Assembly: GCF_027887165.1 (NCBI RefSeq)
Contig: NC_077230.1
Span: forward strand, 38,019,351-38,083,350
DNA from: Monodelphis domestica
Lineage: Eukaryota > Chordata > Mammalia > Didelphimorphia > Didelphidae
Direction: 5' to 3'
DNA: 64,000 bases
Positions 931-52,956 of the stretch are shown here, piece after piece; position 1 is the stretch's first letter; the number at the start of each line of letters is the position of its first letter. Position numbers and translations under genes: made by a program. The notes below the pieces were generated by a model, which saw nothing but the letters and a program-made list of their open reading frames with translations, was not told where the DNA came from and made no database searches.

Positions 931-1224
931 GCTCAAATAAACTCAGACAATATAACATTTAAATGAAGTAGGTTCTGGGAATTTTTTAAGGTTTACAATC
1001 CTAACCTTATGAAGTAGGTTCTCAGAATTTCTAAGGTTCACAGCACCGAGCGGGCAACCTGGACAGAGCTACAAAGACTCCACATATTGCTCTAGCCTTC
1101 CAGGAGGTTTTGGCCTCAGGTCATATCCAGTACAACCCAGCTGAATTTAATCCCATCAAAAGTCTTCAGAGGTCAGGGAAGTCCAAACTCCAAGATCCCT
1201 TCCTCACAGACTTCTGGACTTTAA

Positions 1225-5237: not shown

Positions 5238-5334
5238 AGAACTGGAATTAAAAAATGAAGAGATGGAATTGAAAAGAATAATAGAAGAAGAAGGTCAGAA
5301 ATATAAAAAAGACCTCAAGGAAATTGATGAAAGT
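5238..5334 (+). CDS. Gene A exon: coiled-coil segment
   Basis: Acceptor TTCTTCTGCAG ends at 5237 and donor GTGAGA starts at 5335. The exon is 97 bp, enters needing two bases from the previous exon and leaves in phase 0. It reads ELELKNEEMELKRIIEEEG then QKYKKDLKEIDES, strongly charged and heptad-like. It aligns with gene B exon 35962-36049 (LK..IEE..G...K...I), with two extra codons near the front. An L1 remnant ends within about 20 bp of the acceptor. Confidence 0.6.
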
Positions 5335-8300
5335 GTGAGAGTACAGTTCATATATATATATATATGAACTGTATCTATGATTAAAAACCCAGTGTCTGGC
5401 TCAAATATTTTCCCTCTTCTTTGTGAATAAAATCTAAATTCTGTGACTTCCAAACTGAAACCAGAGGGTTCTACAATTAATATCCAGCGTACCTTGAAAT
5501 AAATCTTATTATATATACATATATGCATATAAATCTCATATACTCACAGCTTAGCAAAGGACCAGACACATAAAAAGCATTTAATAAAGGTCATTTTTTT
5601 TCTATATACACATGACAAGATGTATAAACATATACATACACACATTTATATATGTGTCTCTGTGTGTGTAACTTACATCTATATATGCACCTTGATCAAA
5701 GAACAGGATACTTTTTTATCAAACCTCTCCTAACATCATTCTAACTGCAAATGGTCTGGTCCCTGTAATTTCCCAGTTCTTATGGCACTTTCACTAATTT
5801 TGTCTTTGAACATCTTTACTAGTCCATTCTCCAAAATTATAATCTCCCTGGAGACAGAATCTGTCTTTTCCCTTTCATTTACAATACTACACACAGAGAG
5901 TGGTTTCATTTTATAATATTAAGAAGGAAGACCTACAATGAAGTACTCCTTCTAATGTCCATCCTGGATGTCTAAACCTCACCAAGTCGGTAACATCTTA
6001 GTGCTCTGGGAAACTCTCTGCTACTAGAGAGCAATGGAAGTGACACTTTCCTTCAAAAAGTTAATTCTTCACTGGGAGATCTTTTTGCCTTTGAATTCTA
6101 TCCCTAACCTCATCTACTATGTCTATTCCTATCCCCTTTCCCTTTCCCATCCCCATTTCGACCTCTATACCAATGTCTATCCCTATCCCTAACTTCATGT
6201 TAATCCTTAAATCTATTTTGATTATTATTCCCTGACAACCTATTCATGGAATTTGTGTATAAGTATTTTTAATGTATAGTATTAAGGGGTTAATTGGAGA
6301 GCAGAGAGGCCTGATAAGTGGCTAGCAGGTACAAATGAGTTATTTATGGAATAGTTATGAATGCTGGAGAAAAAAGGATTGAATAAATTGAAATTAATAG
6401 AATTATTATGGTTGCACAAATTTCAGACTAACAACTTGATAGAGAAACTTAAAAAATACGTGAACATATCTGAAGTGAATATTGGAAATCAGCCTGAGGA
6501 GACAGTAAAAGAAGATATAACAACAGGGCAATTATTGGCCGCAGAGGATATCAGTTTAGGTAAGAGTTTGATTCTTGATTAGGCTGAAAGGAATCAATTA
6601 GTGTCAAGAAAAGAGGCAGCAGAGGTTATAATGTAAATATGGAATTTTAGCTGATAAACATTCTGTTGGTCTATTAACACAAATATTTTTAATTTTTTAA
6701 TTGTACAATTTTAATTTTAAATTAAAAAATTTTTAAAAATTAAAAAAAATTTAAATGTTACATGGAGGAACAATTTTTGACAAGTTTTTTTTTTTTACCA
6801 TTTTAAAATTCAGATTTGCTACTTACCCTCCTCCCGCTCCCAGACAAGATGATTAATAGGAGAGAGGAGCATATACCCATACTTTCATGTTATACATACT
6901 TCCATGTTATTTCTGTCCATAGATGATAGAAGACACCTATCACTCTTACAATATAAATCTCATGAAGGTTATATTATAGGAGCAGATGTCAGGTTTTGAT
7001 CTGTCCTTAGCTTCTAAAATTCTGTCTTTGGCTACAGACACTATTTTCTTCATGAATCCCTTGCAGTTATCTTGGAGACTTACTTTACTGATAATGGTTT
7101 TAGTCCTTCACAGTTGATCATGGCAAAATACTTCTGTTACTATATACATTGTTCTTCTGGTTCTGTTCACTTTTTTCTGAACTCACTCTTTCACTGTTTT
7201 TTATGGTACAATAGTATTTTATTATAACTATATAGAAGAACTTGTTCATTCTTCTCCCACATGATGAATAACCCCATAGTTACCAATTCTTTGCCACTAC
7301 AAAAAAAGGTGCCAATAATATTTTGGTACAGTTAATTCCTTTTATTCTACCTTTGATCCATTTGGGATACTAAGCCTGTAATGAGACTACCGGCTCAAAG
7401 GGTATGCATAGTTGTCTTTGGGTATGGTTCCCTATAGCTCTCAAGAATGGTTGTATCAGTTCATAGTTCCACCAACAGCATATCAGTGTTTCATTTTTCC
7501 CATGTCTCCTCCAACATTTATCATTTAAGTCAGTTTAGCTAATATGAAAGTTAAGAAGGCATTTCTCAGAATTGTTTTAATTTAACTTTCTCTCATCAGT
7601 AGTGATTTGGAGCATTTGTAACTATAACTGAATAATTTTAATCTCTTCCTCTGAGAACTGCCTGTTGATATCTATTTCTTGATTGGGGAATGTTTTGTAT
7701 TCTTATAAATTTGACTTGGTTCTCTATATATTTGAGAAATGAGGCTTTAGTCAGATACTTTATATAACCCCCACCCCCATTGGTTGTTTCCTAGATTGTT
7801 GTTTCCTTTCTCATTGGTTTTATTTCAGTAAAATCTTTTAAATTTAATTAAATTAAAATACTTTTTTAAATTAAGAAAGCCATGATTTATATATTTGATT
7901 TATTTTTTCAGAAAACCAAATTTTTTTCTTATTTGTTAGTTCTATAGTTTTATTTCAATTTATTCATATCTCCCTTGATTTTCAGGATTTCCAAATTGCC
8001 ATTTAATTATGGGTTTTTAATTTGTTTTTTTATAGTTTTTTTACTTGCCTAAGCAATTAATTGATGTTCTGTTTCTCTATTTTATTAATATAAGCTATGA
8101 GATATGAATTTCCTTCTAAGTAGTGGTTGGTTACATCCCATAAATTTTGTTTGCATTCCATAAATGTTGTTAATGAAATTGTTATTTGTTTCTATGATTT
8201 AATCTTTGATCCATTTGCTCTTTAGGAAAAGACTGTTTCTAATTCTAAAAATTAGTTTCTAATTTATTTTTAGTCTTCTGCATTTTGTGTCACTTTTCCA

Positions 8301-14300: not shown

Positions 14301-17202
14301 TCATTTTGTAGGTGAGGAAAATGAAGCCCAGAGAATACATATAGATGACTAGCTCCCCTGCTAAGACTTCAAGTGTCTTGCCCCTAAATCCAATGCTCTA
14401 TGTTCTTACCTATGCTTGATAATATAGAGGGTCATTAGCAATAGGAAGCAATTAAAGGTTGCTGTTGCCTCTGGTTAAACCTAGGAAGAAACTTATACTG
14501 TTCTACTCATTGAATTATTCATATTCTTAGATATCACAATTAAAAAAGAACAAGTAGAAGAATTAGTAGAAGAGGAGATCAGCAGTGGCAAACCTGCAGT
14601 GGGAAAAGCTCCAATGCAGTTTTCCTGGTTTTGGTAAGAGATGTGCTTTTTATAAATGGATAACAAAATTCTTAACAGACAAAATAATTTATTTCTGCTG
14701 GATTTTACCCCAATTGGCTACCATTTTGCTGTGTTTTTCCTTTATATAAAAGAACCTCATTATTTCTGTATGGTTTCTCAGTTGTTCACATCTTCCTCAA
14801 ATGGACTCTGGCATAGAGGTATCCAACTCACAGCCTATGGACTGGCCCCAAGATATCCATTTCTTTTTGAGTTTGATAACACCAACATAGAGGAAAAAAT
14901 ATAGGACATAGAGTGTATCCAGGGTCAAATTGGAGCTTTGTCACTTCAACTTGTGTGATTGAGGTTATGTGATTTCTGATCAATACGTTTGAGATTTCTC
15001 ATCTATATAAAATGAGGGGATGGCACAAGTTTACATCCAGTGTTACTTCCAAATCTACATCAGGGAAACTTCAACTCCTTACAAGACAAATCATGTATTA
15101 GTTGTGTTTAATGTAGAGGAGGAAGCGGTAGAGAGAGATGATACCATGCCACATGCACAAAACTTTTAACTTAATTGACTTCCATTTCTTGTTTGTTTCT
15201 TTTTTTTAACATAAACGTCAGGTTAGGTTATACCTATTCTCTTCGATATATGCCAACATAGACATGTGCCCCATAAAAAACCAAAGTTCCTTTAACATAT
15301 GGCTTTATCTTTCTTATGGAATTGAAATTTATGAATTTTTATAGTGTGTTTCTCTTTAGGTAACTTTTTGCATCATAATAGAATATATTTTATGCTTTAA
15401 TTATTTCCCTCTCAAATCTTGGATGATTCTAGCAATGTCCAAGGATACAATTGGCGGAGCTTCTTTTGTTTTAAAAAACATGATAAACAAGTACAGAATG
15501 TGCGCAAGCAGGAAGAAACTTACCTAAAGGTAAATTTTCATTATTTGAAATTTGTCATAAAGATTTATGTGCGTATCTCCATTTTAATTACTAGGGAATG
15601 AGCTTTTAAAATAATCTCTAAGACCCTTTCGCAGTTTTCACTGTCAATGGTTATATAAACATAGGCCAATCTAAGCTTTTAAATATTGTCTCTCTTGATC
15701 TCTAGCTATTTGATGACACCTCTGCTTCTTTTATACCCCAAAGCTGCTGGTGTCTGACTGGACAGAAACTCAAGTTGGCCATTGGTTAAAGAGTATTGGA
15801 ATGAAAAAATATATCCTGAAATTTGATTATAAAAGAGTAAGCAGTCAAGAACTTCTTGAATTAGACAATGATGCATTAAAAGTAAGCTTCAGAATTGGCT
15901 TTTTATATATGCTACATACAATTTTATATTAACTTATTTTATGTTGGGCATTGGATGCAAAACTACAAATAATGGGATTCCTATATATGGCCCATTTGAC
16001 AACCTTATGGTTTTAAGGAAAACATGTTAACTACCTTTTTGAATGTAGTTTCAAGAAATGTTTTTTAATGTGATTTGCTCCCCCTTTTTTTTAGTATTCC
16101 TGCCATATGGTCATTCCTTTTTATTTCTATTTATTCATTGAAGCCTTATACCTTCCGTCTTAGAATATATAACATGTAAATTTCCAAAGAAAAAGAATTT
16201 TAAGGGGTGGTCAATGTGAGGCAAGTGACTGTCTCAGCATCATACTTCTAGGGGGTCACATTTGAAACCAGGATCTCTTTTCTCTAGGTCTGGTTCTTAA
16301 TCTATTGAGCCACCATTCTTTTTTTTTAAGAATTCTATGTATTAACAAACACTGGAAAGCAGAAAAGCAATATTTTAATTTTTGACCACGCAGATTAACT
16401 TCACTGAAACAGATTAAAAAACAGTAATCATGGGAAATGGCAAGCTTTCATTTCATTTATAGTAAATACAATATCAATATTTTAAGCTTTAAATATCAAA
16501 TATTGGTTAGAATAACATCTTTGTCATTGACTAGAGGTACTAGAGGAATATGATAATTGACAACACAAAACCCTGAAATATATTCTACTTGGATTCATTT
16601 GCCACATAAGAAAATATTAGGAGGATTTTTTAAAATATAGCTTCTTTCACAATTATTTCTAAAGTTCCTAATGTATTCTATTTAAGTACCTCTAAGCTGT
16701 AAATTTCTGATATTCTGGGTTCTTCCATTTGAAGACAAATGAAAATTATGCAATTAAAAATAATAAAAAAAATGTATAGTGTTTCAAATGCAACCATCTC
16801 TGGGCTCCCAACCAGTTAAGCAAATAAAAATTAATAGATGAGAAATGTAGCTTCAAGTATAATTATGACACCAATAAGAAGTACCAACACTCTTCTTAGA
16901 AAAGATAGTTTTTATGTGAATTCCTTAATGCCTTTTAGAGTTCTACAATGTAATTTTTTTACTTCATTCAGAGATATTGAATATTTTCCTAATGTTGTAA
17001 AATCTGAGTTCTTCAGAAAGGATACTTAATTTAATGTTCAGTTTCATTATGTAAAGAGTTATAAAATATATTCATTTGAATGCATGCATGTAAAGTAACA
17101 GCTTTCATTTTTTTTCCAAAGTGCATTGGAATCACTAAGAAGAGAGATCGCAAGAAAATCCTTAAGGGAATTAAGAAAATTCAACAGACAGAAAATAATT
17201 AA
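5238..17202 (+). CDS. Gene A: neurabin-like coiled coil + SAM protein, 3' part (six exons visible)
   Basis: Exons read at 5238-5334, 6427-6559, 14531-14633, 15433-15529, 15744-15881 and 17122-17202, all with AG acceptors and GT donors. The phases join without a stop to give about 215 residues ending in TAA. The order is a charged coiled-coil-like segment, a short acidic/Lys linker, a Trp/Phe-rich and basic segment, then a SAM domain (WTETQVGHWL, SIGMKKY, ELLELDNDALK, CIGITKKRDRKK). SAM domains are five-helix protein-interaction modules; in neurabins the SAM is C-terminal, behind PDZ and coiled coil, on an actin- and PP1-binding scaffold. Any such role here is inference. The PDZ exons expected upstream are not in the window. 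The gene is paralogous to gene B exon by exon. It could be a young pseudogene upstream, but the visible frame is intact if a shifted acceptor is used at 15744. Confidence 0.72.
5335..6426 (+). other. Gene A intron
   Basis: Homologous to the gene B intron 36050-37982 from about 5370 on (shared words such as ccagagggttc and the ttcttaactgggag block). It holds TA-rich microsatellites near 5351-5364 and 5510-5530. No extra exon seen. Confidence 0.6.
6427..6559 (+). CDS. Gene A exon: acidic linker
   Basis: Acceptor TTTCAG and donor GTAAGA. The exon is 133 bp, phase 0 in and phase 1 out. It encodes TNNLIEKLKKYVNISEV, then a Glu-rich stretch and the motif TTGQLLAAEDISLG. It matches gene B exon 37983-38193 at both ends (…GQLLAQGDFNSG) but is 78 bp (26 codons) shorter in the middle, so the reading frame is kept. 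Confidence 0.68.
6960..11300 (-). mobile_element. Old L1 LINE, antisense, lacking the RT core
   Basis: From left to right: 3' region (about 6990-7890), EN-RT linker (about 7915-8400), EN domain (8791-8988 reverse: LNVDVNGLNLHIKQKRK, CPQETHLK), inter-ORF, ORF1 (about 9600-10400, antisense DLENR-type region near 10100) and probable 5' UTR to about 11300. About 2 kb of ORF2 encoding the reverse-transcriptase core is missing at about 7900. The same junction is present at about 40040 in the gene B intron. Confidence 0.82.
11590..11720 (+). repeat. L2/MIR3-type 3' tail
   Basis: Pattern 'aactccttgagagcagagattg … tatccttggtgctgtacctgg … aatgattgttgac', characteristic of CR1/L2-derived 3' ends. Confidence 0.6.
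12230..12400 (+). repeat. MIR-like SINE remnant
   Basis: Diverged MIR core: 'attttacggaaaacaaaaacagg … caagtacacccagctagtaaatgg'. Confidence 0.5.
13438..14150. repeat. Unassigned interspersed repeat shared with the gene B intron
   Basis: Homologous to 40470-41225 over its whole length (attttcagtcatcc, tttgtcttgccacaggattt, gaagaaagagtgaggctga). It resembles a family scattered through marsupial DNA, possibly LTR-type. It predates the gene duplication. No open frame. Confidence 0.5.
14265..14415 (+). repeat. MIR-like remnant
   Basis: 'cattttgtaggtgaggaaaatgaagcccagag' pattern. The same insertion lies at about 41345-41500 in gene B, just upstream of the homologous exon. Confidence 0.55.
14531..14633 (+). 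CDS. Gene A exon: Glu-rich linker ending FSWF
   Basis: Acceptor TTCTTAG and donor GTAAGAG. The exon is 103 bp, phase 1 in and phase 2 out. It encodes DITIKKEQVEELVEEEISSG, then KPAVGKAPMQFSWF. The gene B counterpart at 41624-41735 ends KKRFSWFR and has the same phases. Confidence 0.68.
14634..15432 (+). other. Gene A intron
   Basis: Homologous to gene B intron 41736-42516 at similar length. No repeat or exon recognised. Confidence 0.55.
15433..15529 (+). CDS. Gene A exon: aromatic/basic segment
   Basis: Acceptor GATTCTAG and donor GTAAAT. The exon is 97 bp, phase 2 in and phase 0 out. It encodes CNVQGYNWRSFFCFKKHDKQ, then VQNVRKQEETYLK. The gene B counterpart 42517-42613 has exactly the same length and shares FFxFKKHDKQVxNVxK. 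Confidence 0.68.
15744..15881 (+). CDS. Gene A exon: SAM domain helices 1-4
   Basis: The exon is 138 bp, phase 0 at both ends, donor GTAAGC. It encodes LLVSDWTETQVGHWLKSIGM, then KKYILKFDYKRVSSQELLEL and DNDALK. The W..xxV..WL..IGM..Y...F pattern is the SAM signature. The acceptor CCCCAAAG|CTG lies 41 bp downstream of the AG homologous to gene B's acceptor. Using the homologous AG near 15702 would put the SAM out of frame, while the downstream AG, which has a pyrimidine-rich tract, restores it. Confidence 0.68.
15882..17121 (+). other. Gene A intron between SAM exons, with an old SINE
   Basis: A diverged antisense SINE body at about 16135-16325 ('tgaggcaagtgactgtctcagcatcat … tttgaaaccaggatctc'). 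The same old SINE is the target of the nested insertions in gene B (45890-51960). Confidence 0.5.
17122..17202 (+). CDS. Gene A last exon: SAM helix 5 and stop
   Basis: Acceptor TTTTTTTCCAAAG. The exon encodes CIGITKKRDRKKILKGIKK, then IQQTENN and TAA. It continues the SAM domain (the LGI..xxDR.KIL..I pattern) and matches gene B's last exon 52855-52956. Confidence 0.72.
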   Translation, partial: CIGITKKRDRKKILKGIKKIQQTENN

Positions 17203-17960
17203 TACAATCTAACAATTAAATATATCAAAAAGATAATTCTGGAAGATACAGCAAAAATGAGAAAAATATAATTACATGATATTTACCTTTAATCTACTAC
17301 TTCAACATATTATTTTGATATAGAATAATTTTTCATTGTTGAAAAATTATTAATATCATCCATAATAAGCATTACACATATTATACTGTATTTCTGAATA
17401 AACTGATTATAATATACACATATGCTCTCATTTTTGTAGGAAATGGATATGGAATTTCCTCAGTACAACTGAAGGAATAGTGCAAAAAGCAATTTTCCTA
17501 GTATAACAGAAACTCTTAGATGTTTTCAATCTTGTTCAACTTTTCATTACCTCTGCCTAGACCACCTGTAAAAAATCTGCCTCAAACATTGAATTGTTGC
17601 TTTCTTATTGTCCCAGAGTCCTTAATAGACATTAATTGCAGAACCTTAATCTTCTTCTCTACAAGTCCAGCCCTCTCTATTCTTTGTTAATTTTGCTTCA
17701 GAATCCAAATATGAACAAAAGAAATAAATGTATATAAAAATTTATACATATAATAAATATATATCTATACGGTATATATGATATGTGTGTGTGCATACAT
17801 ATATATTGCCCATGAGACCTCCTTCTTACCTTCTCCCATTAACTACTACATTGACTTCTCCATAGTTTTTTGGTCATAATACTCTCCAAATCATAGCTCA
17901 AGTGCTCCAAAATACTGTTTTACATTTATCAATCTGTTAAAGAATGTTATTCAGTTAAAC
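17203..17960 (+). other. Gene A 3' UTR and flank shared with gene B
   Basis: This non-coding DNA follows the TAA. Homology with the gene B flank resumes after B's minisatellite and runs to about 17.95 kb (B: about 54.83-55.34 kb), marking the approximate 3' limit of the gene duplication. Confidence 0.5.
17397..17402 (+). terminator. Candidate polyadenylation signal of gene A
   Basis: An AATAAA hexamer lies 195 bp after the stop codon. The aligned position downstream of gene B (54897-54902) reads AAAAAA. Confidence 0.5.
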
Positions 17961-18668
17961 CAATGGCCAACGAGGTGCTTTTGTTGTCCTCTCCCAGGAC
18001 AATACTCTTTAACAACTCTGCCCACTTCTGCTCCCAAAGAGATAAAAGGAAAACGTGCTTTAGGACATCGACAACATGAAGCAATAGTTGTAAAGAGTGA
18101 AGAACTATAGAAACATGCATGGACTATACGCTATAGCACCCTTGAGCTATTTAGCTTTAGAATCTTTGCTTTTTAATTCTTACTATAAGCTTTTAATAGA
18201 CACAAGGATCATTTGTTTTAGTTTTGTTTTTAGACCTGTGGCCTGAAGGAGCCATGTGCACTAGGAAAGAAAATAGGAAAAGTTACTTGGTTTAGAGGAT
18301 CATATGTATCATCTAAGTTTCCCTAGTGCATATGGAAATATAAATGATCCAAGATAATTTCTTGGGATCTGAGAATGTCCATGAGAATAATATACTACGG
18401 GAAGATCTCCATTGACTGCTGCTGTTGAAAGTAAGGACAAACCTGAGAACACAATGACAGTTTTATTCTAAAGGCTAAAGCCAGAGATAGGGACTTGTGT
18501 ATTTCTAAAGGGACCGACTTCTGTAGGCATGATGTGGCCTAGGAAGAAGAATCAAATTTCAGTTCAACAGGACTAAAACAATAGGAGATTCATGAATGCC
18601 TGATTCCCTTTTACATGTGAATAAATTCTGTCACAAAGGTAAGTTTAATAAGAAGTTAAGGTGGCAGC

Positions 18669-18669
<1 letters not shown>

Positions 18670-18708
<39 letters not shown>

Positions 18709-18722
18709 TGTGTGTATGTGTG
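18670..18722. repeat. (TG)n microsatellite
   Basis: About 26 TG units with two TA interruptions. Confidence 0.95.
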
Positions 18723-19599: not shown

Positions 19600-19797
19600 A
19601 AAAATAAAACAAACAAAAAACCCTTGCCTTCTCACTTAGAATCAATGCTGTGTATAGTTTCCACAGCAGAAGAGTGGTAAGGGCTAGTCAATGGGGTTTA
19701 AGCTTCTTGCCCAGGGTGACCAAGCTAGGAAGTGTCTGCGGCCACATTTGAACCCAGGACTTGGCTCTCAATTCACCGAGTCACCCAACTGCCTCCA
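19600..19797 (-). mobile_element. tRNA-derived SINE, antisense
   Basis: The reverse strand carries the SINE body (antisense 'gggctagtcaatggggtttaag', 'cacatttgaacccagg'), with a T/A-rich 3' end at left. Confidence 0.65.
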
Positions 19798-41000: not shown

Positions 41001-44000
41001 GACATCTAAGACACTAAAGTCATTTAGGTTCAGTGTCAATCATCTAGGTTCAGTGTCAGTCATCCAGACTTTTGTCTTGCCACAGGATTTAGATGATTCT
41101 GCAAGAAAGAGTGAGGCTGACAATTTTGTGCAACTCACTTAAATCCAATTCATACACAAGTTAAGATATTATTCTGTGATGTCACTGGTACTTTTCAAAC
41201 ATAAGGATCACCACCACCACTGCCAACTGATTAATCAACATTTTTGACTGTCTCATCCTTTTAAGTCTTCTTCAATCTAGCTTTATTTGTTTTAAACTGC
41301 CCTTGCAGCGGGACTAGTATTTTCTTGGTAGATATTCTAGATCATCAGTCTTAGAAGGAACCTCAAAGACCACCCACTTTAATCCCTTCATTTTGTAGGT
41401 GAGAAAAATGAGGCCCGGAGAAGATATTCAGATAGTTACCTTCCCAGCTGTGACTTCATGGCTTCTGGCTCTAAAATCAAGGCCAAAGGTAGGTTCTTCA
41501 CTTTATAAGATGTCTAAGCCTTGGTCAGCAATAGTAACCAATGAAAGATTGCCGTTGTCCCTTGCTAATCCTAGTAAAATATTTGTGTACTGTTGTACTC
41601 ATTGAATTATTTATTTTTCTTAGAGACTCCAATAAAAAAAGAAAAAGAAGAAGATGAAATAGTAGTGGAGGAAGAGATTATTAGCACTGGAAAACCTACA
41701 GATGGAAAGGCTAAAAAGAGATTTTCCTGGTTCCGGTAAGAGATGTACTTTTTATATATGGATAACAATATTCTTAATAAACAAAACATTTTATTTCTCC
41801 TGGAATTTACCTCTTTGGCTACTGTTTGCTATGTTTTTTGCCCCTTTCTACAAAAGAACATTATTTATATGAATTTTCTCAGTTGTTCACATCTTCCTCA
41901 AATGGGTGCTGGCATAGAGTAAAAGTGTCAAATTCACAGTTTATGGATGTGACCCAGAGAGATCCATTTCTTTTTGAGTCTGATAATAACAACTTAGTGG
42001 GAAAAGTATAGGACATGGAATCTGGAGTTTTATCACCTAGTCATGTGTTCAAATTCAAGTATTTTCTGATCAATAGGTTACAGACTTCCCATCTATAAAA
42101 TATTACAAGTTGACATCTAGTGTTACTTCAGATCTAAATCAGTGACCCCATCACTCCTTACAAGACAAATCATGTATTAGTTGTGGTTAATGTGGAGGAG
42201 GAAGAAGTAGAGAAATGATATTGTGCCATATGCACACATATTTAACTTAACTGGCTTCCATATCTAGTTTTATATTTTTACCTATAGCACCAAATTTGAT
42301 CTTGCCCCTTCTCTAATACATGTGCTGACATAGCACGTATCCTACAAAAAGTGTAACTCCAAACTCTTTTAACATGTAGCTTTGTCTTTTTTTTTTCAGA
42401 ATTGAAATTCATGAAATTTTTATAGTGTGCATCTATTTAAGATCTTTTTTGTGTCATAGTAGAATGTATTTTTTGTTTTAATAATTATTTCCCTCTCAAA
42501 TGTTGTATGATTCTAGCAATATCAAAGAATGCAAGCTGTGGAACTTCTTTCATTTTAAAAAACATGACAAACAAGTAAAGAATGTGCACAAGTGGGAAGA
42601 AATTGATCAAGAGGTAAATTTTCATTATGTTAAATTTATCAAAGAGTGAAGTTTGTTTCCCCATTTAAATTACTAGAGAGTGAGCTTTCTCTTAAATTAG
42701 AAAACTATAATTTACCTTGGATTGAGGAGTTAACATTCTGTCATAATTATTAATCAGTATGCATAGGAATAAAATTACCTGAGTAAGGAGCAAAAGTACC
42801 ATAGCGGCAACTGTTTGGCCTTGAAGTCTCTTTTTTGTTCCCAGAGATCATTCAAGAACCTCTCTCAAGAAAAGGGAATGATTAAGAACTCTTAAAACAT
42901 TTGAATTCTCTGTATTTGGATGTTCTTAGGACAAAGGATAATTGATTCAACTTTTGGCCTCAGAATATTGTTGGCTGAAATTTTTCTAAAATTATGGCAC
43001 AGAGTATTGAAATACACTTAACCTAGAGAAAAGTGCAAGTTGAATTGTTATGGGCTGATGCAGGTAGGAAGTGATAACATATTAGGATAATTTTCCCTCC
43101 ATGAGACAGAAGGGGTCTTTGAAGGGGCTGTACAATATTTAAAAAATAACAGGTAGGTAAAATGGTAAAAGTTTACCAAGAAATACCACTGTCGGTTGTT
43201 GGCAAAATAAGAGGAGAGATTGCATGTGTATGTCTTGATTTACTGTGCCTGTGTTACTGAGCAAAAAAAAGAACATGAGAGCCACAGATGGGCCAATATG
43301 TCAATGAAGGAAAATAATAAATGTTGAAGTGGATATGGCAGAATTCGGACACTAATGCATTGCTAGTGGAGTTGTGAATTAATACAAGCATTCTGGAGGG
43401 AAATTTGGAATTATGAGCAAAGGGCTTTAACAGAACACATATCCTTTGATCCAGCAATACCACTGCTGGGTTTGTACTCCAAAGAGATAATAAGGAAAAA
43501 TGTGTATACAAAATATTCATAGCTGAGCTCTTTGTGGTGGCAAAAATTGGAAAATGAGGGCATGTTCCTCAATTAGTGAATGACTAAACAAATTGTGGTA
43601 TATGTTGGTGATGGAATACTATTGTGTTATAAGGAATGATGACCTACTTGATTTCTATATGAACTGGAAAGACCTCCATGAACTGAAGCACAGTGAAATG
43701 AGCAGAACCAATCGAATGATATATACTGAAAGTGAAACATTGTAGAACTATCCAACATAATGAACTTTACTACTTGCAGCATACAATAGTCCAGGACATT
43801 CCTGAAGGACTTATGAGAAAGAATGCTATCTATATTGAGAGAGAGAACTATAGGAATAGAAATGAAAAAGAAAAACTTAAGACTTAACACTTAGAACTTG
43901 TTTATATGAATATATGATTTGGGGTTTGAGCTCTATGGTAAAAATGAATAATATAAAATTAGATATCAAGGGATAACATTTGTACAATCTAGTAGAATTG

Positions 44001-47000
44001 CTTATTGCTTCTGGGAGGGGAAAAGGGAAAGAAAATGAGTCATATAAACTTGAAAAAATATTAAAAATAAAAAAAAGAATATGAGGTGTGAGGTCAATTG
44101 AGAACATATCTATTGATCTTCACACATATTTTTACACATACATAAATAAATAGATACACATGTACATATGAGTAAGTCCAACTAAAGATTTCATCACCCA
44201 CCAGGCATTAGGAGGTATTTCTGACCTGCCCAATTTTGTTTGTGGTCTAGGTAGCAAGAATACAATTCTGAATTGCCTCACATTAGGAATTCTTTTGAAT
44301 CCTCCAAGGATGGTCCCATCTCTTAATAGATACTGAAAAAGGACCCCCACAACACTGTCTAATGGAGATGGGCATATTTTTTTCAATTTTCTTTTACTTA
44401 TAAAATAATAAATGGCAATAAAATACAAGCTTTCCTCCAAACCTAAAGGTGACAACATCGAATATATTTAACATTTGTAATCATGATGGTCAACTTGCCA
44501 AAATCTTGTAAAAAAAAAAGTAAGATTTGTTTCCATTTACTTTCTAGAAATATTACCCATCAGTAGAAATAGACAAAAAGCTAGGATGCACTTTAATAGT
44601 TCCTGACCAGTTTCTCAACTGATATGGTAACCTCAATTGGAAAGTTATGGATATCAGACACTGGAAGAGGGAATTGGGGACTTGAGGGTTCTTTGCCTTT
44701 ATAAGAACCATCACTAGATTCTAAAGTTAGCTAACACCTAGCTAATCTAACTTCTAGTCTTAGAACCTGATGATGACTCCTCCTCTGCCTCCCATGACCC
44801 AGAAACCCCAGCAGCTCCCACCAGGCCAAGTTGCCTCAACTTCCTTCCTGGGTGGATATTGGGTAAAGTGGCCTGTGTTCCTGGCCAAAGAAAAGACAAA
44901 ACTACCTGGGTAAAGGTAGATTTTAGTTCAATTTATTTTGGCCATGGAGAATAACTGAATACACTTTGGATGTAGATAATTTTCCTCTCATCTTGTCTTA
45001 ACTTGGAGTAGGTGGAAACATTTTAGTATTAATACATTCCCTTACAAAGTCATCACTCCTTAAGTGAAAATATATCGAGTATTTTGCCTGTTTTAGAATA
45101 CTGCTATTTTTAAAAAGGCTCCAAAATATTTTCATTGCAAAAAATAAAGTTTTTTTTTCCTGGTTTACAAAACTCACTTCAGATCTCTTGTTGTTCTGTG
45201 AATTTTTGACATACAGATGAAAGAAAAGGGTGGTGGGGATAAGAAATACAGCAGCCTTGAAAAGCAAAATTTATAAAAAAACGAACTGTGAAATGAGGGA
45301 TGATTTTGGAACAAATGGTCTCTAAGGCTCCTTTGAGTTTTTGCTGTCTATGGTTATATTAACATATAGCCATGGAAGCTTTTTAAATATTGTGTCTCTT
45401 GACCTCTAGGTATTGGATGATTACTGTCCTTATTCTACTGAAGCCCCTAAAACATTGCCAACAGAGTGGACAAATATTGAAGTTGGTAATTGGTTATGGA
45501 GCATTGGAATGGAGGAGTATGTTGTAAAATTTTATTGTAAAGGAATAAATGGTGAAAAACTCCTTACACTGGACAATCGCTCTCTAAAAGTAAGTTCAAG
45601 AGTTGACTTTATTTTTTACAATCCATTAGAAAACATATATATATATATGTGTGTATATATATATAATCACTAATTTTATGGAGAGAGTATATAAAACATA
45701 ATACAAAAATGGGAAATCCTATATATGATCTATTGGCCAATCTTATGGTTTTAAAGAAATCATGTTAACCTCCTTTTGAATGTAGTATCAAGGGAGATTT
45801 CTTTTTGATTGTGATTTGTTAAATTCCCCCCTCCCCTTTTTAGTATTCCTAACATGTGGTCATTTCTTTTTATTTATATTTATTATTTATTTTTAAAAAC
45901 CTACCATTCCATCTTGGAATCAATACCCATGTATTAATTCCAAGGAAGAAGAGGAGTAGGATCTGGGCAAGGAGTGGGTAGTGAGTGACTTGCTGAGGGT
46001 CACATTGCTAGCAAGAGTATCGAGAGTATGTGAGGGGGAAGCTGGGTAGCTCAGTGGATTGAAAGCCAGGCCTGTAGATGAGAGATCCTGGGTTCAAATT
46101 TGACATCAGACATTTCCCAGCTGTGTGTGACAAGGAAATCACTTTAAAAGACTGATATATATATTAATTTAAGGTCACCAAGGAATTCAGCTATGTAATT
46201 CCTAAATGAAAACTCAAGTCAGCAGTCAACCTTTTATGGAGTTTAATTACAAACAGGAGAAAAAAGATATTAGAGATAGAGAGAGAGGGAGAGAGAAAGG
46301 GGAGAGAAGGGAATAGGGCTTAAATACCTCTTCTGTTTAGGCTGGGCCAAAAGGCCCAAGCCCCTAGATAGCTGAGGCAAAGAAAAGAGATCAGTCCCTA
46401 TCACTCACGTGACCAAAATGGAGAAACAGTCTCAGGGGCTTCTACCTCCAGCTTCCTTCAGACCTTCTCAGAGCACCATCTCTCAGAGCAAACCTCTCCA
46501 ACCAACCCCCCCTAGTCCTCAGACCCCACTATCTTTAAGGAAACCATCCAAGTTCCCTCCCCTCAGTTCTCACATCTACCAATCACTGTCCATGTCTTCC
46601 CTGTGCCAATGGTGGCTCTAGGTTAACCCAGGACCGCCCAGAGGTCTGTGGCTTTGCACATGTCTGTCTGTTGAAGGTCATATTCTCAAATAATTAAATC
46701 TTGAACCTTTGCTGCAGCCCTTCCTAAATCCTGTTACCCTGAGTAGGGTGGAGATTGGAATAATTAAATTTTGATCTATGCTGCAGCCCTTCCTAAATCC
46801 TGTTAGCACTGAGTAGGGTGGAGATTGTAATTTCCAAGACCTGGTTCTGTCATTCCAAGTATCTCTATTGTATCAATTCTAAAATCAATCATGACTCAAG
46901 GAACTTCCTGTTCTATGCTTAAGCATAGGTCAAAGCCCTTTCCATTGTTCAGCAAAAGGTTTCTGTCCTAAAGTAATCTTAAGAAGGGAGGAGGAGGAAC

Positions 47001-50000
47001 CTCCCATGCCAATGGGGTTCACATTCCAATAGACTATCAGTAAGAAATTTTCCAAGTATGAAATTTCCCAATGGTGAAATTTCCAACATTTATAAGTCTA
47101 GGAAATTTTAAGGTTTACACGTGTGACCATGGGTAAGTCACTTAATGCCCATTGCCTAGCCTTTACTGCTCTTCTGCCTTATGACCAATACATAATATTG
47201 ATTCTAAAGTGGAAGATGAGGGTTTTTTTAAAAAAAGAGTGGTTGGGATTCCAGGTAAACATGGTGGTAGTCTAGAAGCACGACTTCCTCTTCTCAGTAC
47301 CCACTCATAATAGACTACCTCAAAAGACCAAAAACCCAAATTCATAAGAATAAAGAGACTCTACAGTAGGGCCCAGCATTAAAGGTATGTGGAATTTGGG
47401 TATTTCCACACTATAAGGGGGTGAAAAAGCTCCCTTCAAAATGTGAGCTGATCTAACCTCCCCCACTCCACCTATGGAACCAGAGTCAGAGCTAGCTTGC
47501 TCCTGAATCAGCGAATGAGTAAGAAGCAGCTCTAGGTCCTTGGGAACTAACTAAGACCACAAAAGACCTACCCCTGAGAGCAGCTACATGTGAAACCCCA
47601 GCAGCCTGAAAAGCACAGACCATGGGTGCTCCTGGGAAGATATCACAGAGAAGGGCAGCAAACAGTAGAAGCTGCGGAGATTCTGGAGCTTGCCTCGGGC
47701 AAAATCCTTGCTCCTTAGCTCCATACACAGAGTTCCTTCCCATCTCACTCAGATTTCTGACTAAAATGGGAAGGAAAAACCTCTACAGTGATGGTAAATT
47801 GTGACCAGGAGCAACAACCTCCCTCCAAGGAAAACAAAAAGAAGTTATTGACCCTGGAAAATTTTTACAGAGGAAAAACTCAAGCTACAAAGGAAATACA
47901 AGTGGCAGCTTCCACACTAAAGGACCACAAAACCTAGAACATGATAGGCAAGAGAATTGGGTCTTCAACCAAGGATCACCTATCCATCAAAATTGACTAT
48001 ATACTTGCAGGGGAAAATATGGGCATTCAACAAAATAGAAGATTTCCCAGTATTTGTAAAGAAAAAAACAGAACTATAAGTGGAAAGTTTGATATCCAAA
48101 CACTAGATCAAGAGAAACATGAAATGGTAAATAAGAGAGGGAAAAGTGGAAAAAAAATTTTTATTCAATCTTTCTTTTTTAAGGGCTTAAATTAGATCAA
48201 ATTATATGTATTAATATATGGGGGAAATGTTATTTGTAACTCTCAAAAATTATATTCAATATCATGGTAATTAGAAGAATCATTCACAGGAAGAGACTGG
48301 GGCACTAAGGGGCTATGAGATGATATGCAAAAAAGGGGGGGGGAAATCAAAGATGGCACGAAGAGATACTTCAAGAAATAAAATAAATAGTATAATCTTT
48401 ATCACACAAAGATACAAATGGGCAGGGGAGGGGAAGAATACTCTTATTAGACGGAGAGAAAGAGAATGCTAATAGGTAATACATGAACCTTACTCTCAGT
48501 GAAATCCATTCTGAGAGGGAAGAGAACCTACACCATCTTTAATTCTATCTTATCTGACAGGGAATGTGAGAAGGGAAAACTAAGGTGGGTAGGTTGGAGA
48601 AAAGTACAAAAAGGGAGGTAAAGAGAGGGGGGAGGGAACGTAAGAGACCCTAAAAAAAAGAAGGGAACAAAAAGGGAGGGGCCAGAATGGGAAGCATATT
48701 AAGGGAGGGGATTAGGGGAATTGATTAAAAGTAAACCACCAGTTTAAAAAGATGTAGCAAAAGAAGAAAGGACAGAACTAGGAGAGGATATCAAAATGCT
48801 GGAGAATACAAAAGTGACAATCCTAACATTGAATGTGAATGGGATGAAATCACCCATAAAATGAAAGCAAATAGGAGAGTGGATTAGAATCCAAAATCCT
48901 ACCATATGTTGTCTACAAGAAACACACCTGAGGCGAGTAGATACTCACAAGGTTAGAATCAAAGTTTGGAGCAAAACCTGTTGGGCCTCAAGTGATAGAA
49001 AGACGGCAGGAGTTGCAATCATGATATCTGACAAAGCCAAAGTAAAAATAGATCTGATTAAAAGGGATAAGGAAGGTAAATCCATCCTGATAAAATGGAG
49101 TATAGACAATGAAGAAATATCACTAATCAACAAGTATGCACCAAATGGTATAGCATCCAAATTTCCAAAGGAGAAACTAGTGGAATTGAAGGAGGTAATA
49201 GATAGTAAAACTATACTAGTGGGAGACCGTAATCTACCACTATCAAATTTAGATAAACCAAATCAAAAAATAAATAAGAAAGAGATAAAAGATGTGGATG
49301 AAATCTTAGAAAAATTAGGGTTAATAGGTCTATGGAGAAAAATAAATAGGTACTAAAAGGAATACATCTCCTTTTCAGAAGCACATGGTACATTCACAAA
49401 GATTGACCATATACTAGATTATGAAAACATGGCAAACAAAAGCAGAAAAGCAGAAATAATAAATGCAACCTTTTCAGATCATAATGCAATAAAAATAATG
49501 ATCAGTAAAGGTATGTGGAGAGCCAAATCAAAAATTATTTGGAAATTACATAATATGATTCTCCAAAATTGGCTAGAGAACAAATCATCAAAACATTAAT
49601 TTCATTGAAGAAAATGACAATGATGAGATATCCTTTCAAAATCTATGGGATGCAGCCAAAGCAGGATTCAGGGGGAAATTTATATCTTTGAGTTCATATA
49701 TTAACAAATTAAGGAGGGTAGAGGTCAATGAATTGGACGTGCAAATCAAAAAACTTGAAAGTGAACAAATTAAAAATCCCTAGAAGAAAACTAAATTAGA
49801 GATCCTAAAAATTAAGGGAGAAATAAATAAAAGTGAAAGTGAAAGAACTATTGTACTAATGTAAAACTAGAAGCTGGTATTTTGAAAAAAACAAACAAAC
49901 AAAATAGACAAACTCTACTGGTCAATCTAATAAAAAAAAAGGAAAGAAGAAAAACAAGGTAATAGTGGAGATGAAAAGGGAGACCACACCTCCAGTGAAG

Positions 50001-52956
50001 ATCATTAAAAACTCTATTGCCCAATTATATGGCAAAAAATATGCTAATATAGGTGATATAGATGAATGTTTACAAAAATATAAATTGCCTAGATTAACAT
50101 AAGAAGAAATAGAATTCTTAAATAATCCCATATCAGAAAAAGAAATTGAACAAGCCATCAAAGATCTCCTTAAGAAAAACATCCCTAGGGCCTGATGAAT
50201 TAACAAAGGAATTCTATCAAACATCAAAGAAAAGCTCAAAGTTCATTTGGAGAAGAATAAAAGATCAAGGATATCCAGGGAAATAATGAAAAAAAAACGC
50301 AAAGGAAGGTGGCCTTTGTAGTACCAGATCTCAAACTATACTATAAAGCAGTGGTCATCAAAACAATTTGGTAATGGCTAAGAGGCAGAAAGGAGGATCA
50401 GTGGAATAGACTTGGGATAAGTGACCTCAGCAAGACAGTCTATGACAAGCCGAAACATCATAGCTTTTGGGACAAAATGTAAAATAAATAATTTTGATTC
50501 CATCAAATTAAAAAAGTTTTGTACAAACAAAATCAATGCAACCAAAATTAGAAGGGAAGTAACAAATTGGGAAACAATCTTCATAACAAAATCTCTGACA
50601 AAGGGCTAATTACTCAAACTGACAAAGAACTAAATCAATTGTCCAAAAAAATCAAGCCATTCTATAATTAATAAATGAGCAAGGGACATGAATAGGCAAT
50701 TTTCAGTCAAAGGAATCAAAACTATTAATAAGTACATGAAACAGTGTTCTAAATCTCTAATAATCAGAGAAATGCAAATCAAAACAACTCATCTCATACC
50801 TGGAAGATTGGCTAACATGACAGCAAAAGAAAGTAATGAATGATAGGGAGAAAGAAGGGGGTGTGGAAAAGTTGGGATATTTGCATTGCTGCCAGACTTG
50901 TGAATTGATCCAACCATTCTGGAGGGCCATTTGGAACTATGCTCAAAAGGGGCTAAAAGACTGTCTGCCCTTTGATTTAGCCATAACACTGCTGGGTTTG
51001 TACCTCAAAGAGATAATAAGGAAAAAGACATGTACACGAATATTCGTAGCTGCACTCTTTTTGGTGGCAAAAAATTGGAAAATGAGGGGATGCCCTTCAG
51101 TTGGGGAATGGCTGAACAAATTATGGTATATGTTGGTGATGGAATTACTATTGTGCTCAAAGGAATAATAAAATAGAGGAATTCCATGGATACTGGAACA
51201 GCCTCCAAGAAGTAATGCAGAGTGAAAGGAGCAGAACCAGGAGAACATTGTACACAGAGACTGATACACTGTGGTACAATCGAATGTAATGGATTTTTCC
51301 ATTAGTGGCAATGCAGTGATCCTGAAGAACCCAGAGGGATCTATGAGAAAGAACAGTATTCACATTCAGAAGAAAAACTGGGGGAGTAGAAACACTGAAG
51401 AAAAACAACTGCTTGATTACATGGGTCTAGGGGGATATGTTTGGGGATGTCGACCATAAAGGAACATCCTAGTGCAAACATCAACAGCATGGAAACAGGT
51501 TATGATCAAGAACACATGTAATACCCAGTGGAATTGCGCATCAGCAATGGGAAGGGCAGGCGCCGGGGAGGGGAGGGAGGGATAGTATATGATTTTTGTA
51601 ACCAAGGATTAATGTTTGAAATTGACCAAATTAAAAAATAAATAAAATGAAATGAAATGAAAAAAAAAGAGTATGTGAGGCCACATTTGAATTAAGGACT
51701 TTTAAAAAAATTTAATTTGTTAGTCAATTTTTAGAACATTATTCCTTGGTTACAAGAATTATATTCTTCCCCTCCCTGCCCTCTCCCCACCCTTCCTGAA
51801 TCTGTTGCTCAATTTCATTGGGTATTACATGTATCCTTGATCAGAACCAATTTCTATGTTGTTGGTGTTTGCATTATGATGATCATTTAGAGTCTACCTC
51901 CCCAGCCATATCTGAGTTAAGGACCTCTTGTTTCTAGGCCTAGCTCTCAATTTGCTAAGCCACCTGTCATTCTTTTTTAGAACTCTGTGCATTAAAAAAG
52001 AAAAAAAAAAACAAACCACTGGTAACCAGGAAAGCAGTTTTGTCGTTTTTGAACAGTCAGATTAATTTCACTGAAACAGATTAAAAAACATTAATCATGG
52101 AAAATGGCAAAATTTCATTTCATTTATAGTAAATAGAATCTCATATTTTATAAGGCCTAAATTGTAAATCCTCGTTAGTATGATACCTTTGTCTTTGACT
52201 AGAGATACTTGATCCATGAAATATGATAACTTACTAGACAAAAAAAAATTCTACTTGGATTCATTTATTTCCTAAGAGAATAGAATTTTGAGGGTTTTTA
52301 AAGTATACTTTCTCTCATAACATGTTTCTAGGATTTTCCTAAAATATAGTATTTGATTTAAGTTCCTTTAAGCTGTAAATGTCTGATATTCTGACCCTTC
52401 AATTTTAATTTAATTTTTAATTTTAAAAATAAATTATTAATACATTTAAGTATTGATTGATTTTATTATTCATTCTTTTACTTAAGTAAACAGGAATGTT
52501 TTAATTAATTTAATTTAATTTTCCATTTAATTTTTTTTTCAATTTGGGATTGTTTCAATAGCACAAGCATCATTGGACTCCCATCCAGATAAATAACAAT
52601 TAATGCATGAAATCCCAAAACGTTTCACAACGGCAAACTATTACGGTAGTTCCTTAATGTATTTTAGGATTGTACGATGTAATTTTTTACTTCATCCAGA
52701 CCTAGGGAATATTTTTCTATTGTTGGAAAATCTGTGTTCTTTAGAAATGATCCTATAGCAGCTTCATTTTCAGGTTCATTATGTAAAGAATTAGAAAATC
52801 TATTCATCTGAATAAGTAGATGCAAAGTTACACTTTTAATTTTTCTTTCCAAAGGAAATCGAAGTCAACAGGAAGAAAGACCGCCGGAAAATACTTAAGG
52901 CTATTAAGAAAGTTAGAGATTTTTGGGAAAAAAATCATCATTTCGTCTTACTATAG
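22970..52956 (+). CDS. Gene B: neurabin-like PDZ - coiled coil - SAM protein (eleven exons)
   Basis: Exons read at 22970-23088, 25127-25247, 26980-27087, 27567-27672, 29474-29556 (tentative), 35962-36049, 37983-38193, 41624-41735, 42517-42613, 45410-45589 and 52855-52956. Every junction has AG/GT borders and compatible phase, giving 441 codons without a stop, or about 420 residues from the first Met at 23034. PDZ: LGLCTC carboxylate-loop region, GVFITEIIEGGAVHKLG, IRVFDQIIKIGDINLIGL, IEIGREPPE. This follows neurabin's GIFVKTVTEGGAAQRDGR, IQVNDQIVEVDGISLVGV and VIGREKPG closely (recalled family sequence). A charged helical segment, an acidic linker and a C-terminal SAM follow. Neurabins are actin/PP1 scaffolds at synapses and junctions; a scaffold role here is inferred. 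The long N-terminal actin-binding part of neurabin was not found. Confidence 0.75.
23340..24890 (+). mobile_element. Old L1 LINE 3' half, sense, in a gene B intron
   Basis: 'gatgatctaaccataccagatatc' (L1 ORF2 LTLPDxK region), through a diverged ORF2 C-terminus (24160-24500), to the 3' UTR. Many substitutions and no long frame; an older subfamily than the element at 1225. Confidence 0.75.
25127..25247 (+). CDS. Gene B exon: PDZ first half
   Basis: Acceptor TTTATAG and donor GTGAGT. The exon is 121 bp, phase 1 in and phase 2 out. It encodes GDNELGLCTCIFFDPADEDG, then KEPGVFITEIIEGGAVHKLG. The ELGL loop and GVFITEIIEGGA strand-helix match the neurabin PDZ, and the exon border falls after the EGGA..(K/R)xG motif. 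Confidence 0.78.
25248..26979 (+). other. Gene B PDZ intron
   Basis: No repeat family or additional exon recognised. Splits the PDZ after the EGGA(V)HKLG motif. Confidence 0.5.
26980..27087 (+). CDS. Gene B exon: PDZ middle
   Basis: Acceptor CTATTTTTCAG and donor GTAAGTA. The exon is 108 bp. It encodes CIRVFDQIIKIGDINLIGLD, then EAEIISTFKKMDDSPF. The (I)xVxDQI(I/V)x(I/V)xxxxL(I/V)G pattern is typical of PDZ beta-strands 3-4 and closest to neurabin. Confidence 0.78.
27427..27470. repeat. (TTTTG)n simple repeat
   Basis: About eight TTTTG-type units in the intron before the third PDZ exon. Confidence 0.85.
27567..27672 (+). CDS. Gene B exon: PDZ end and start of helix
   Basis: Acceptor GTACCTAG and donor GTATTA. 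The exon is 106 bp, ending in phase 0. It encodes QIEIGREPPEVKSKLIELLE, then LSEERKKYFMDSLIVQ. IGREPPE equals neurabin's IGREKPG; the following Glu/Leu-rich helix parallels neurabin's SEVAQLISQTLEQERRQ. Confidence 0.76.
27673..29473 (+). other. Gene B intron with decayed LINE-like and L2-like DNA
   Basis: 28960-29080 carries an L2-like 3' tail ('ctgtaagcccctggaggtgaagg … tatccccagg'). 28180-28560 looks like decayed antisense LINE DNA. No exon supported. Confidence 0.45.
29474..29556 (+). CDS. Gene B tentative exon bridging PDZ and coiled coil
   Basis: Acceptor CATTTAAAG and donor GTATAT, both weak. The exon is 83 bp and encodes EKIRDITIVRGQASICRSPR, then VPWYWMA, entering in phase 0 and leaving two bases. 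This is exactly what the flanking exons 27567-27672 (ends phase 0) and 35962-36049 (needs two bases) require. Without it, gene B would be out of frame between them. The YW pair falls where neurabin has LESYWIEAQ, which is suggestive only. Confidence 0.45.
29943..30125 (-). mobile_element. tRNA-derived SINE, antisense
   Basis: Antisense body: 'gagctaggcattggggtcaaaag … gggtcacatagcaaag … agatttgaatgcaggacctccc', ending 'ctatccactcagccaattagc'. Confidence 0.7.
30600..30875 (+). repeat. MIR-type SINE
   Basis: 'tttgctatttccttctctagctcatttaacaggtgaggaaactgaggcaaac' with a 'tgacttgcctagtgttacacag' core, then the common marsupial MIR-family tail. Confidence 0.8.
30947..31814. mobile_element. Probable solo LTR of an endogenous retrovirus (fossil)
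   Basis: The block begins TGTGA and ends TCACA, is GC-richer than its surroundings and has no coding content. No internal retroviral region is seen. A target duplication is not obvious, so the call is tentative. Confidence 0.45.
32356..32659. mobile_element. hAT-type non-autonomous DNA transposon, first of a tandem pair
   Basis: Terminal inverted repeats TGATGGTAAACCT … AGGTTTGCCATCA. Flanked by 8-bp CCCTAGAG (32348-32355) and TCCTAGAG (32660-32667), one mismatch. No transposase. Confidence 0.82.
32668..32882. mobile_element. hAT-type non-autonomous DNA transposon, second of a tandem pair
   Basis: Same family: starts near TTGGTGAACCTATAGC and ends TTTTGCCATCACTG. Left flank TCCTAGAG is shared with the first element; right flank is CCCTGGAG (32883-32890). 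Confidence 0.78.
33540..33960. other. GC-richer block without gene
   Basis: C-rich non-coding block ending in a T-run. Overlapping short open frames show no family resemblance; possibly an antisense LINE 5' UTR. Confidence 0.3.
34313..34514 (+). mobile_element. tRNA-derived SINE, intact, young
   Basis: Starts GGGGAAGCTGGGTAGC. Pol III A-box-like TAGCTCAGTGG at about 34322 and B-box-like GGTTCAAATC at about 34370. Ends in an A-run. Perfect 20-bp target duplication at 34293-34312 and 34515-34534. Confidence 0.95.
34576..35111. mobile_element. Solo LTR of an endogenous retrovirus (fossil)
   Basis: Begins TGTTATGGGG and ends CTCAACA. Short similar flanks (acaaag / acagag). No internal retroviral region. 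Confidence 0.6.
35785..35925 (+). repeat. MIR-like remnant
   Basis: 'gctaagtgacttgcccaagttaatacaactaattagtgg' core about 40 bp upstream of the acceptor at 35961. Confidence 0.55.
35962..36049 (+). CDS. Gene B exon: coiled-coil segment
   Basis: Acceptor TTCTTCCACAG and donor GTAAGA. The exon is 88 bp, needs two incoming bases and ends in phase 0. It encodes SDLKFVIGALKILIEEDQGC, then RKNIQAIFEQ. It aligns with gene A exon 5238-5334. Confidence 0.66.
36050..37982 (+). other. Gene B intron
   Basis: Homologous to gene A intron 5335-6426 in its right part (about 36840 on). TA-rich microsatellite at 37005-37045. No exon seen. Confidence 0.55.
37983..38193 (+). CDS. Gene B exon: long acidic linker
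   Basis: Acceptor ATTTCAG and donor GTAAGA. The exon is 211 bp. It encodes ANIFQDKYKDMNTYKVNMEQ, a Pro/Glu-rich middle with PEEELLLEQFKIKPKEI, and the end DLSPGQLLAQGDFNSG. It is 26 codons longer than the gene A counterpart. No known domain is recognised in the linker. Confidence 0.7.
39140..40385 (-). mobile_element. Old L1 LINE, antisense, paralogue of the 6960-11300 element
   Basis: The 3' half and EN-RT linker are joined at the same internal junction (about 40040) as in gene A (about 7912). The element then ends abruptly at about 40385, where sequence homologous to gene A 13330 resumes. Confidence 0.8.
40470..41225. repeat. Unassigned interspersed repeat shared with the gene A intron
   Basis: Homologue of 13438-14150, with the local duplication 'catctaggttcagtgtca' at about 41033-41058. 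Possibly LTR-type; no coding content. Confidence 0.5.
41624..41735 (+). CDS. Gene B exon: Glu-rich linker ending FSWFR
   Basis: Acceptor TTTCTTAG and donor GTAAGAG. The exon is 112 bp, phase 1 in and phase 2 out. It encodes ETPIKKEKEEDEIVVEEEII, then STGKPTDGKAKKRFSWFR. It is 9 bp longer than gene A's exon, in frame. Confidence 0.7.
41736..42516 (+). other. Gene B intron
   Basis: Collinear with gene A 14634-15432 at nearly equal length. No new insertion. Confidence 0.55.
42517..42613 (+). CDS. Gene B exon: aromatic/basic segment
   Basis: Acceptor GATTCTAG and donor GTAAAT. The exon is 97 bp. It encodes RNIKECKLWNFFHFKKHDKQ, then VKNVHKWEEIDQE. Length and phases are identical to gene A exon 15433-15529. 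Confidence 0.7.
42690..45320. other. Gene B-specific intron insertion block
   Basis: Gene A has 214 bp between the matching exons and gene B has 2.8 kb. The extra DNA holds an L1 3' end and unassigned sequence; no exon supported. Confidence 0.6.
43270..44075 (+). mobile_element. L1 LINE 3' end, sense
   Basis: 'ttctggagggaaatttggaattatgagcaaa', 'tttgatccagcaataccactgctgggtttgtac' and 'ggtggcaaaaattggaaaatgag' mark the L1 ORF2 end. Interrupted frame, A-rich tail at about 44055-44075. Confidence 0.85.
45410..45589 (+). CDS. Gene B exon: SAM domain helices 1-4
   Basis: Acceptor GACCTCTAG and donor GTAAGT. The exon is 180 bp, phase 0 at both ends. It starts VLDDYCPYSTEAPKTLPTEW, then TNIEVGNWLWSIGMEEYVVK and FYCKGINGEKLLTLDNRSLK. 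This is a clear SAM pattern; GINGEKLLTLD parallels neurabin's ITGEQLLQLDG. Confidence 0.75.
46034..47235 (+). mobile_element. tRNA-derived SINE split by an LTR
   Basis: The 5' half at 46034-46125 (GGGGAAGCTGGGTAGCTCAG, B-box-like GGTTCAAATT) and the 3' half at about 47120-47235 (ccatgggtaagtcactt … A-run) match the intact SINE at 34313. Flanking AGAGTATGTGAG occurs at 46023-46034 and again at about 51669-51680. Confidence 0.85.
46126..47119. mobile_element. Solo LTR of an endogenous retrovirus (fossil)
   Basis: Begins TGTGACAAGG and ends TTTACA inside a SINE whose two halves join correctly around it; short GTG repeats lie at the edges. Internally it has an AG-rich tract and an imperfect ~70-bp tandem duplication at about 46690-46830. 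No internal retroviral region. Confidence 0.72.
47240..51668 (+). mobile_element. L1 LINE, sense, long but lacking most of the RT core
   Basis: Probable 5' UTR from 47240. EN domain in interrupted frame (about 48820-49350: NPTICCLQETHL, KAKVKIDLIKRDKEGKSILI, LINKYAPNG). EN-RT linker to about 50240, jump to the ORF2 C-terminus at about 50260 (YLHCCQTCELIQPFWRAIWN, KTCTRIFVAALFLVAKNW), then A-rich tail at 51630-51668. It sits in the A-rich end of the SINE. Confidence 0.88.
51700..51908 (-). mobile_element. L1 3' end fragment, antisense
   Basis: Reverse complement of the L1 3' UTR ('aatttctatgttgttggtgtttgcatt'). Left T/A-run and imperfect flanks GAATTAAGGACTT / GAGTTAAGGACCT support a separate insertion. 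Confidence 0.8.
52855..52956 (+). CDS. Gene B last exon: SAM helix 5, short tail, stop
   Basis: Acceptor TTTCTTTCCAAAG. The exon encodes EIEVNRKKDRRKILKAIKKV, then RDFWEKNHHFVLL and TAG. The usual LG(I/M) turn of the SAM is replaced by EIEV. The tail is 7 residues longer than in gene A. A 42-bp minisatellite begins about 50 bp after the stop. Confidence 0.7.
   Translation, partial: EIEVNRKKDRRKILKAIKKVRDFWEKNHHFVLL

Follow-up and report, generated by a model that had tools for sequence, protein, structure and literature searches.

Tandem neurabin-like genes ending in a SAM domain, one with open PDZ exons, in the opossum Monodelphis domestica

What are the two same-strand genes that end in a SAM domain in this part of the Monodelphis domestica genome, and how do they relate to neurabin, a scaffold protein of nerve cells? 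The window analyzed here is a stretch of 64,000 nucleotides (NC_077230.1, positions 38,019,351 to 38,083,350), and all coordinates below are counted from its first base. Gene B (23034-52956, + strand) consists of 11 phase-consistent exons, or 421 codons with the stop, which code for a PDZ domain, a linker and a SAM domain. Gene A (5238-17202, + strand) has counterparts to the last six exons of gene B; any exons preceding them would fall to the left of the window. The two were proposed in a preliminary description as a tandem pair on one strand, and this is what we find: the six exons are present in both genes with their order kept and their phases matching, so the observation is confirmed. Our preferred reading, to which we assign a probability of roughly two in three, is that genes A and B arose by duplication from a neurabin-1-like ancestor and encode short SAM adaptors, with open PDZ exons in gene B.

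The exons of gene B, all on the + strand, begin with E1 (23034-23088, MMQRRVQNLDLFSCQIDK), given here as the coding part from its ATG; it could reach back as far as an acceptor at 22970, and it holds the N-terminal flank and first strand of the PDZ. The domain continues through E2 (25127-25247, GVFITEIIEGGA) and E3 (26980-27087, IRVFDQIIKIGDINLIGL) and finishes in E4 (27567-27672, IEIGREPPEVKSKLIELLELSEERKK), where a helix-like stretch follows. Next come E5 (29474-29556, EKIRDITIVRGQASICRSPRVPWYWMA), the linker exon E6 (35962-36049), the acidic linker exon E7 (37983-38193), E8 (41624-41735), which ends in KKRFSWF, and E9 (42517-42613, NIKECKLWNFFHFKKHDKQVKNVHKWEEIDQE). The first part of the SAM domain is in E10 (45410-45589), its end and the stop codon in E11 (52855-52956). 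Joined from the ATG at 23034, these exons contain no internal stop, nor does the spliced reading counted from acceptor 22970 in its 441 codons; the base-shuffled reading has a mean of 35.6 stops and a minimum of 20 (2,000 shuffles). Some splice sites score low by simple matrices, namely the E9 acceptors of gene B (-6.2) and gene A (-5.7) and the E4 donor (0.2).

Are these genes already known? When a provisional spliced translation of gene B, 341 aa long, was searched against a protein database, two of 2,958 candidates reached E ≤ 10, both from M. domestica and both named "uncharacterized protein." The first, P0001 (LOC103102196, 332 aa, in a cluster of 2 sequences), matches gene B at 99% identity over the common part, and the second, P0002 (LOC130453618, 362 aa, in a cluster of 29 sequences that may be isoforms, copies or both), at 95%; the two loci belong to the same gene family as gene B. 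The pair had been called undescribed, which agrees with the literature searched (titles and abstract beginnings, with most subscription papers and preprints outside it), where we found no description of gene A, gene B or either LOC; NCBI, however, already has these uncharacterized entries. The suggestion of a marsupial cluster likewise fits the two Monodelphis proteins, whereas a broader mammalian one gains no support from a search that requires shared 5-residue words and similar length and so could miss distant relatives.

P0001 maps exon by exon to E4 to E11 of gene B, with E5 matching its residues 43-69 and its first residues, MDDSPFQ, forming the end of E3, and all six exons common with gene A match it in gene B. 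P0002 contains in addition an optional exon (41399-41488, + strand) that is absent from P0001. This SINE-like piece, presumably a MIR, occurs in both copies, with an in-frame TAG in the gene A counterpart at about 14312-14400; it is possibly a case of exonization in one copy. Its absence from P0001, its SINE-like character and the in-frame stop in gene A led us to keep it out of the core gene B model.

Does gene B encode a PDZ domain? The residues first cited as neurabin-like sit in three phase-compatible exons, E2 to E4, to which E1 is now added as a fourth; its phase 1 fits E2. Without E1, the PDZ scores 28.8 bits against the neurabin-1 chain 9gsu_C and 34.6 bits against neurabin-2 (2g5m). 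With E1, the score for 9gsu_C rises to 44.1 bits (E = 2e-10, alignment from query residue 2), a gain of about 15 bits, compared with only about 2 for the single-PDZ DLG2 chain 4h11 (29.4 to 31.7). Because E1 raises the neurabin-1 chain far more than the DLG2 chain, it looks real and neurabin-specific. Pfam recognizes the PDZ in gene B at 25.9 bits (cut-off, 23.2), and among the matches listed at E ≤ 1e-4, seven neurabin/spinophilin chains outrank all other single-PDZ chains, the best for neurabin-1 being 9gsu, 3hvq and 1wf8, with similarity also to spinophilin (neurabin-2, PPP1R9B; 2g5m, 3egg and 3egh). The PDZ is seen for gene B only; any PDZ of gene A would lie beyond the window.

The strongest challenge to our reading is that there is no working PDZ, E1 and E2 being relics or untranslated and the product being NCBI's linker-SAM protein of 332-362 aa. 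This alternative, which overlaps with the preferred reading except for the PDZ, we hold at somewhat less than even odds. Unlike the gene B reading, both NCBI proteins are without E1 and E2; they begin with MDDSPFQ, after most of the PDZ, and by Pfam they contain SAM only. The ATG of MDDSPFQ, in E3, is the next in-frame ATG after those of E1, and a transcript without the E1 coding sequence would yield exactly this start. With the NCBI start at E3, a translated PDZ thus rests on one unannotated exon. Weighing against relics, all three exons from E1 to E3 keep an open, phase-compatible and neurabin-like reading, with donor scores of 7.2, 6.1 and 3.3, and there is the selective gain that E1 brings to 9gsu_C over 4h11. 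The gene B PDZ may be translated.

Gene A, in our preferred reading the partner of gene B, can be followed through all six common exons (+ strand). E6' (5238-5334; acceptor score 6.5, donor score 1.0) is linker and runs from phase 1 to phase 0 like its gene B counterpart at 35962, with which it aligns weakly. E7' (6427-6559) and E9' (15433-15529) correspond to E7 and E9, and E8' (14531-14633) contains QFSWF. The SAM domain is read from E10' (15744-15881), with a shifted acceptor, and closes with the stop in E11' (17122-17202). Relative to gene B, gene A shows a 4-bp gap some 30 bases past the start of the SAM exon. The acceptor homologous to that of gene B, at 15706 (score 4.5), leads into a shifted frame and a stop; since the gap breaks the frame from there, the gene A SAM is in frame only from 15744 (score 2.1), at a cost of 14 codons. 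Read from this acceptor, its best PDB match is neurabin-1 (2gle, 50.4 bits, E = 1.4e-12), which is also the best match of the gene B SAM (40.8 bits, E = 2.1e-9), so that the gene A SAM is the nearer of the two to neurabin-1. The Pfam search that recognized the PDZ also matches SAM_2 at 43.9 bits (cut-off, 20.5), and no SAMD14 chain is among the PDB matches listed for the gene A and gene B SAM. Both halves of the neurabin likeness first proposed, PDZ and SAM, are thereby borne out, with neurabin-1 as the best SAM match in the PDB and neurabins leading the single-PDZ chains.

How strongly have the two genes diverged? Across nine aligned intron regions, A and B differ at 23.8% of sites (1,234/5,183; K2P, 0.29), and the alignment contains 99 gaps, of which 82 have a length not divisible by three. 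The protein-guided exon alignment gives a K2P of 0.40 against this 0.29. When exons are aligned as DNA with their flanks, for five of the six (E6, which aligns weakly, is left out), 161/549 exon sites differ compared with 476/1,751 flank sites (P = 0.33). This levelling arises because the flanks of the E7 block align poorly (39% different): in the four exons without that block, the counts are 124/419 and 338/1,398 (P = 0.03); when the five exons are instead compared with the nine intron regions, P is 0.005. In these five exons, differences at the three codon positions are 65:49:47, without an excess at third positions. In the protein-guided alignment, 4/21 fourfold sites differ, too few to decide. 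Exon divergence is thus at least equal to intron divergence and possibly higher, in keeping with the fast evolution suggested earlier. We do not claim positive selection, as alignment and choice of regions can yield an exon excess.

The comparison of dN/dS between A and B that had been proposed gave a divided answer. Over all six exons, a codon model estimates omega at 0.79 (209 codons), indistinguishable from 1 (P = 0.37); other estimators give 0.346/0.633 (NG86) and 0.389/0.486 (YN00). By group, E6-E7 (72 codons) has an omega of 1.74 (P = 0.23), E8-E9 (65 codons) one of 0.65 (P = 0.39) and E8-E11 (137 codons) one of 0.47 (P = 0.03); the lowest value, 0.28 (P = 0.015), comes from the 72 codons of the SAM exons, these codon-model P values being uncorrected for five groupings.

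It is tempting to see in such numbers decaying duplicates, one or both being pseudogenes or transcribed remnants whose frames survive by chance or which died recently. The overall dN/dS of 0.79, exons that are not more conserved than introns, and the frame break at the homologous SAM acceptor of gene A would all fit. However, a neutral simulation with the introns as its calibration, which starts from the present sequences and ignores how the exons were chosen, predicts 5.3 stops in gene A and 6.3 in gene B, along with 5.1 and 6.2 frame-breaking indels. None are observed except one, the 4-base change in gene A. The simulated probability of no stop is 0.0046 for gene A and 0.0017 for gene B; that of no stop with at most one frameshift is 0.0002 for gene A, and it occurred in 0 of 20,000 runs for gene B. 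The SAM omega of 0.28 and the greater closeness of the gene A SAM to neurabin-1 also speak against decay, which we regard as unlikely, though gene B could be alive with gene A recently dead. Together, these results show genes that were coding through most of their history, with a constrained SAM and a remainder evolving almost freely.

It is very improbable that the genes are not neurabin-derived, their PDZ being of DLG-type or other origin and an unrelated SAM having been added to it (e.g., that of SAMD14): DLG4 chains do have the lowest whole-sequence PDZ E values, above neurabin, but they lead because their several PDZ copies add up, and for a single domain they reach at most 18.2 bits in the N-terminal PDZ part compared with 30.1 for neurabin-1 3hvq_C (one matched stretch), while PDZ and SAM each match neurabin-1 independently and the FSWF and LDD spacing ahead of the SAM also resembles that of neurabin-1.

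How much of a neurabin is left? Gene B and neurabin-1 (PPP1R9A) are alike in having a PDZ, a charged region and a C-terminal SAM in that order. Neurabin-1 has roughly 1,100 residues; gene B is shorter, at about 420, with the charged exons E4 to E7 between PDZ and SAM. An AlphaFold2 model of P0001, predicted with P0002, has a mean pLDDT of 31.0, too low for a coiled-coil conclusion or a fold search. In the spliced 441-residue reading of gene B, the RVxF-type PP1-binding pattern [RK].{0,1}[VI][^P][FW] has no match. A splice-site screen of 17300-22970, which has limited power, gave 8 candidate exons before E1, none neurabin-like by eye, and no N-terminal F-actin-binding exon was found; one candidate (20239-20318) with weak splice scores fits a loose PP1 motif. 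For gene A, an actin-binding region would be outside the window. Because neither the PP1 motif nor the actin-binding N terminus was found, we view genes A and B as a neurabin-derived variant and not as a neurabin proper. They also differ from neurabin-1 in being tandem copies and in their fast divergence.

Under the preferred reading, a neurabin-1-like gene would have been duplicated in the opossum lineage to give genes A and B, which keep at most the PDZ-SAM half of neurabin; the actin- and PP1-binding N terminus and most of the long middle were apparently lost. In gene B, the exons that code for an entire PDZ, a short charged linker and the SAM are still open. Both products would most likely be short cytoplasmic adaptors working chiefly via SAM, which may associate with itself or with SAMs of the neurabin-1/SAMD14 type. 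With no actin or PP1 anchor, they might serve as a decoupled scaffold or as a competitor of neurabin-1. The exons, their phases, the domain matches, the Monodelphis annotation, the SAM constraint and the maintained frames come directly from the analysis; we count against this reading the omega of 0.79 overall, the exon divergence, the shifted acceptor of gene A and the NCBI start in E3.

To our knowledge, mammalian neurabins are a two-gene family plus SAMD14, spinophilin is without a SAM domain, and SAMD14 is without a PDZ. If the preferred reading is true, genes A and B would be a further neurabin branch, shortened, duplicated and lineage-restricted, and a natural experiment on the PDZ-SAM half without actin or PP1 anchoring; two uncharacterized opossum loci would also gain a family assignment. 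Were ordinary decay the explanation, this would amount to a modest case of gene duplication. Going further, the genes may belong to a multi-copy family specific to marsupials or didelphids, with the SAM under purifying selection and the linker free or diversifying, whose members would be natural decoys: through them, SAM assembly of the neurabin type would be uncoupled from actin and PP1, the acceptor shift rescuing one copy from a frameshift; we find this extension doubtful. According to PMC7242717, the SAMD14 SAM resembles that of neurabin-1 (57% identical), and the neurabin-1 SAM did not reconstitute Samd14 function. The Caenorhabditis elegans neurabin NAB-1 has an actin-binding N terminus, PDZ, coiled coil and SAM, according to PMC6179291.

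The surroundings of the genes hold several repeats. A LINE-like antisense fragment lies in a matching intronic place in both genes (7208-7872 in A, 39314-39988 in B) and, because the place is equivalent, its insertion probably predates the A/B duplication. A third gene copy was considered at the end of the window (62474-64000) and rejected: this segment matches 49396-50188 in antisense and corresponds to nothing in A and B but intron sequence, and we take it to be LINE-1. Starting 57 bases past the gene B stop, some 43 copies of a 42-bp unit stand in tandem (53014-54817), and no tandem array is listed after that of gene A. Positions 1-3767 and 58703-62473 are 98.9% identical, a direct segmental duplication that is open on the left, where the window begins, and far younger than the A/B duplication; 100 bases ahead of its second copy is a perfect (CT)36 microsatellite (58531-58602).
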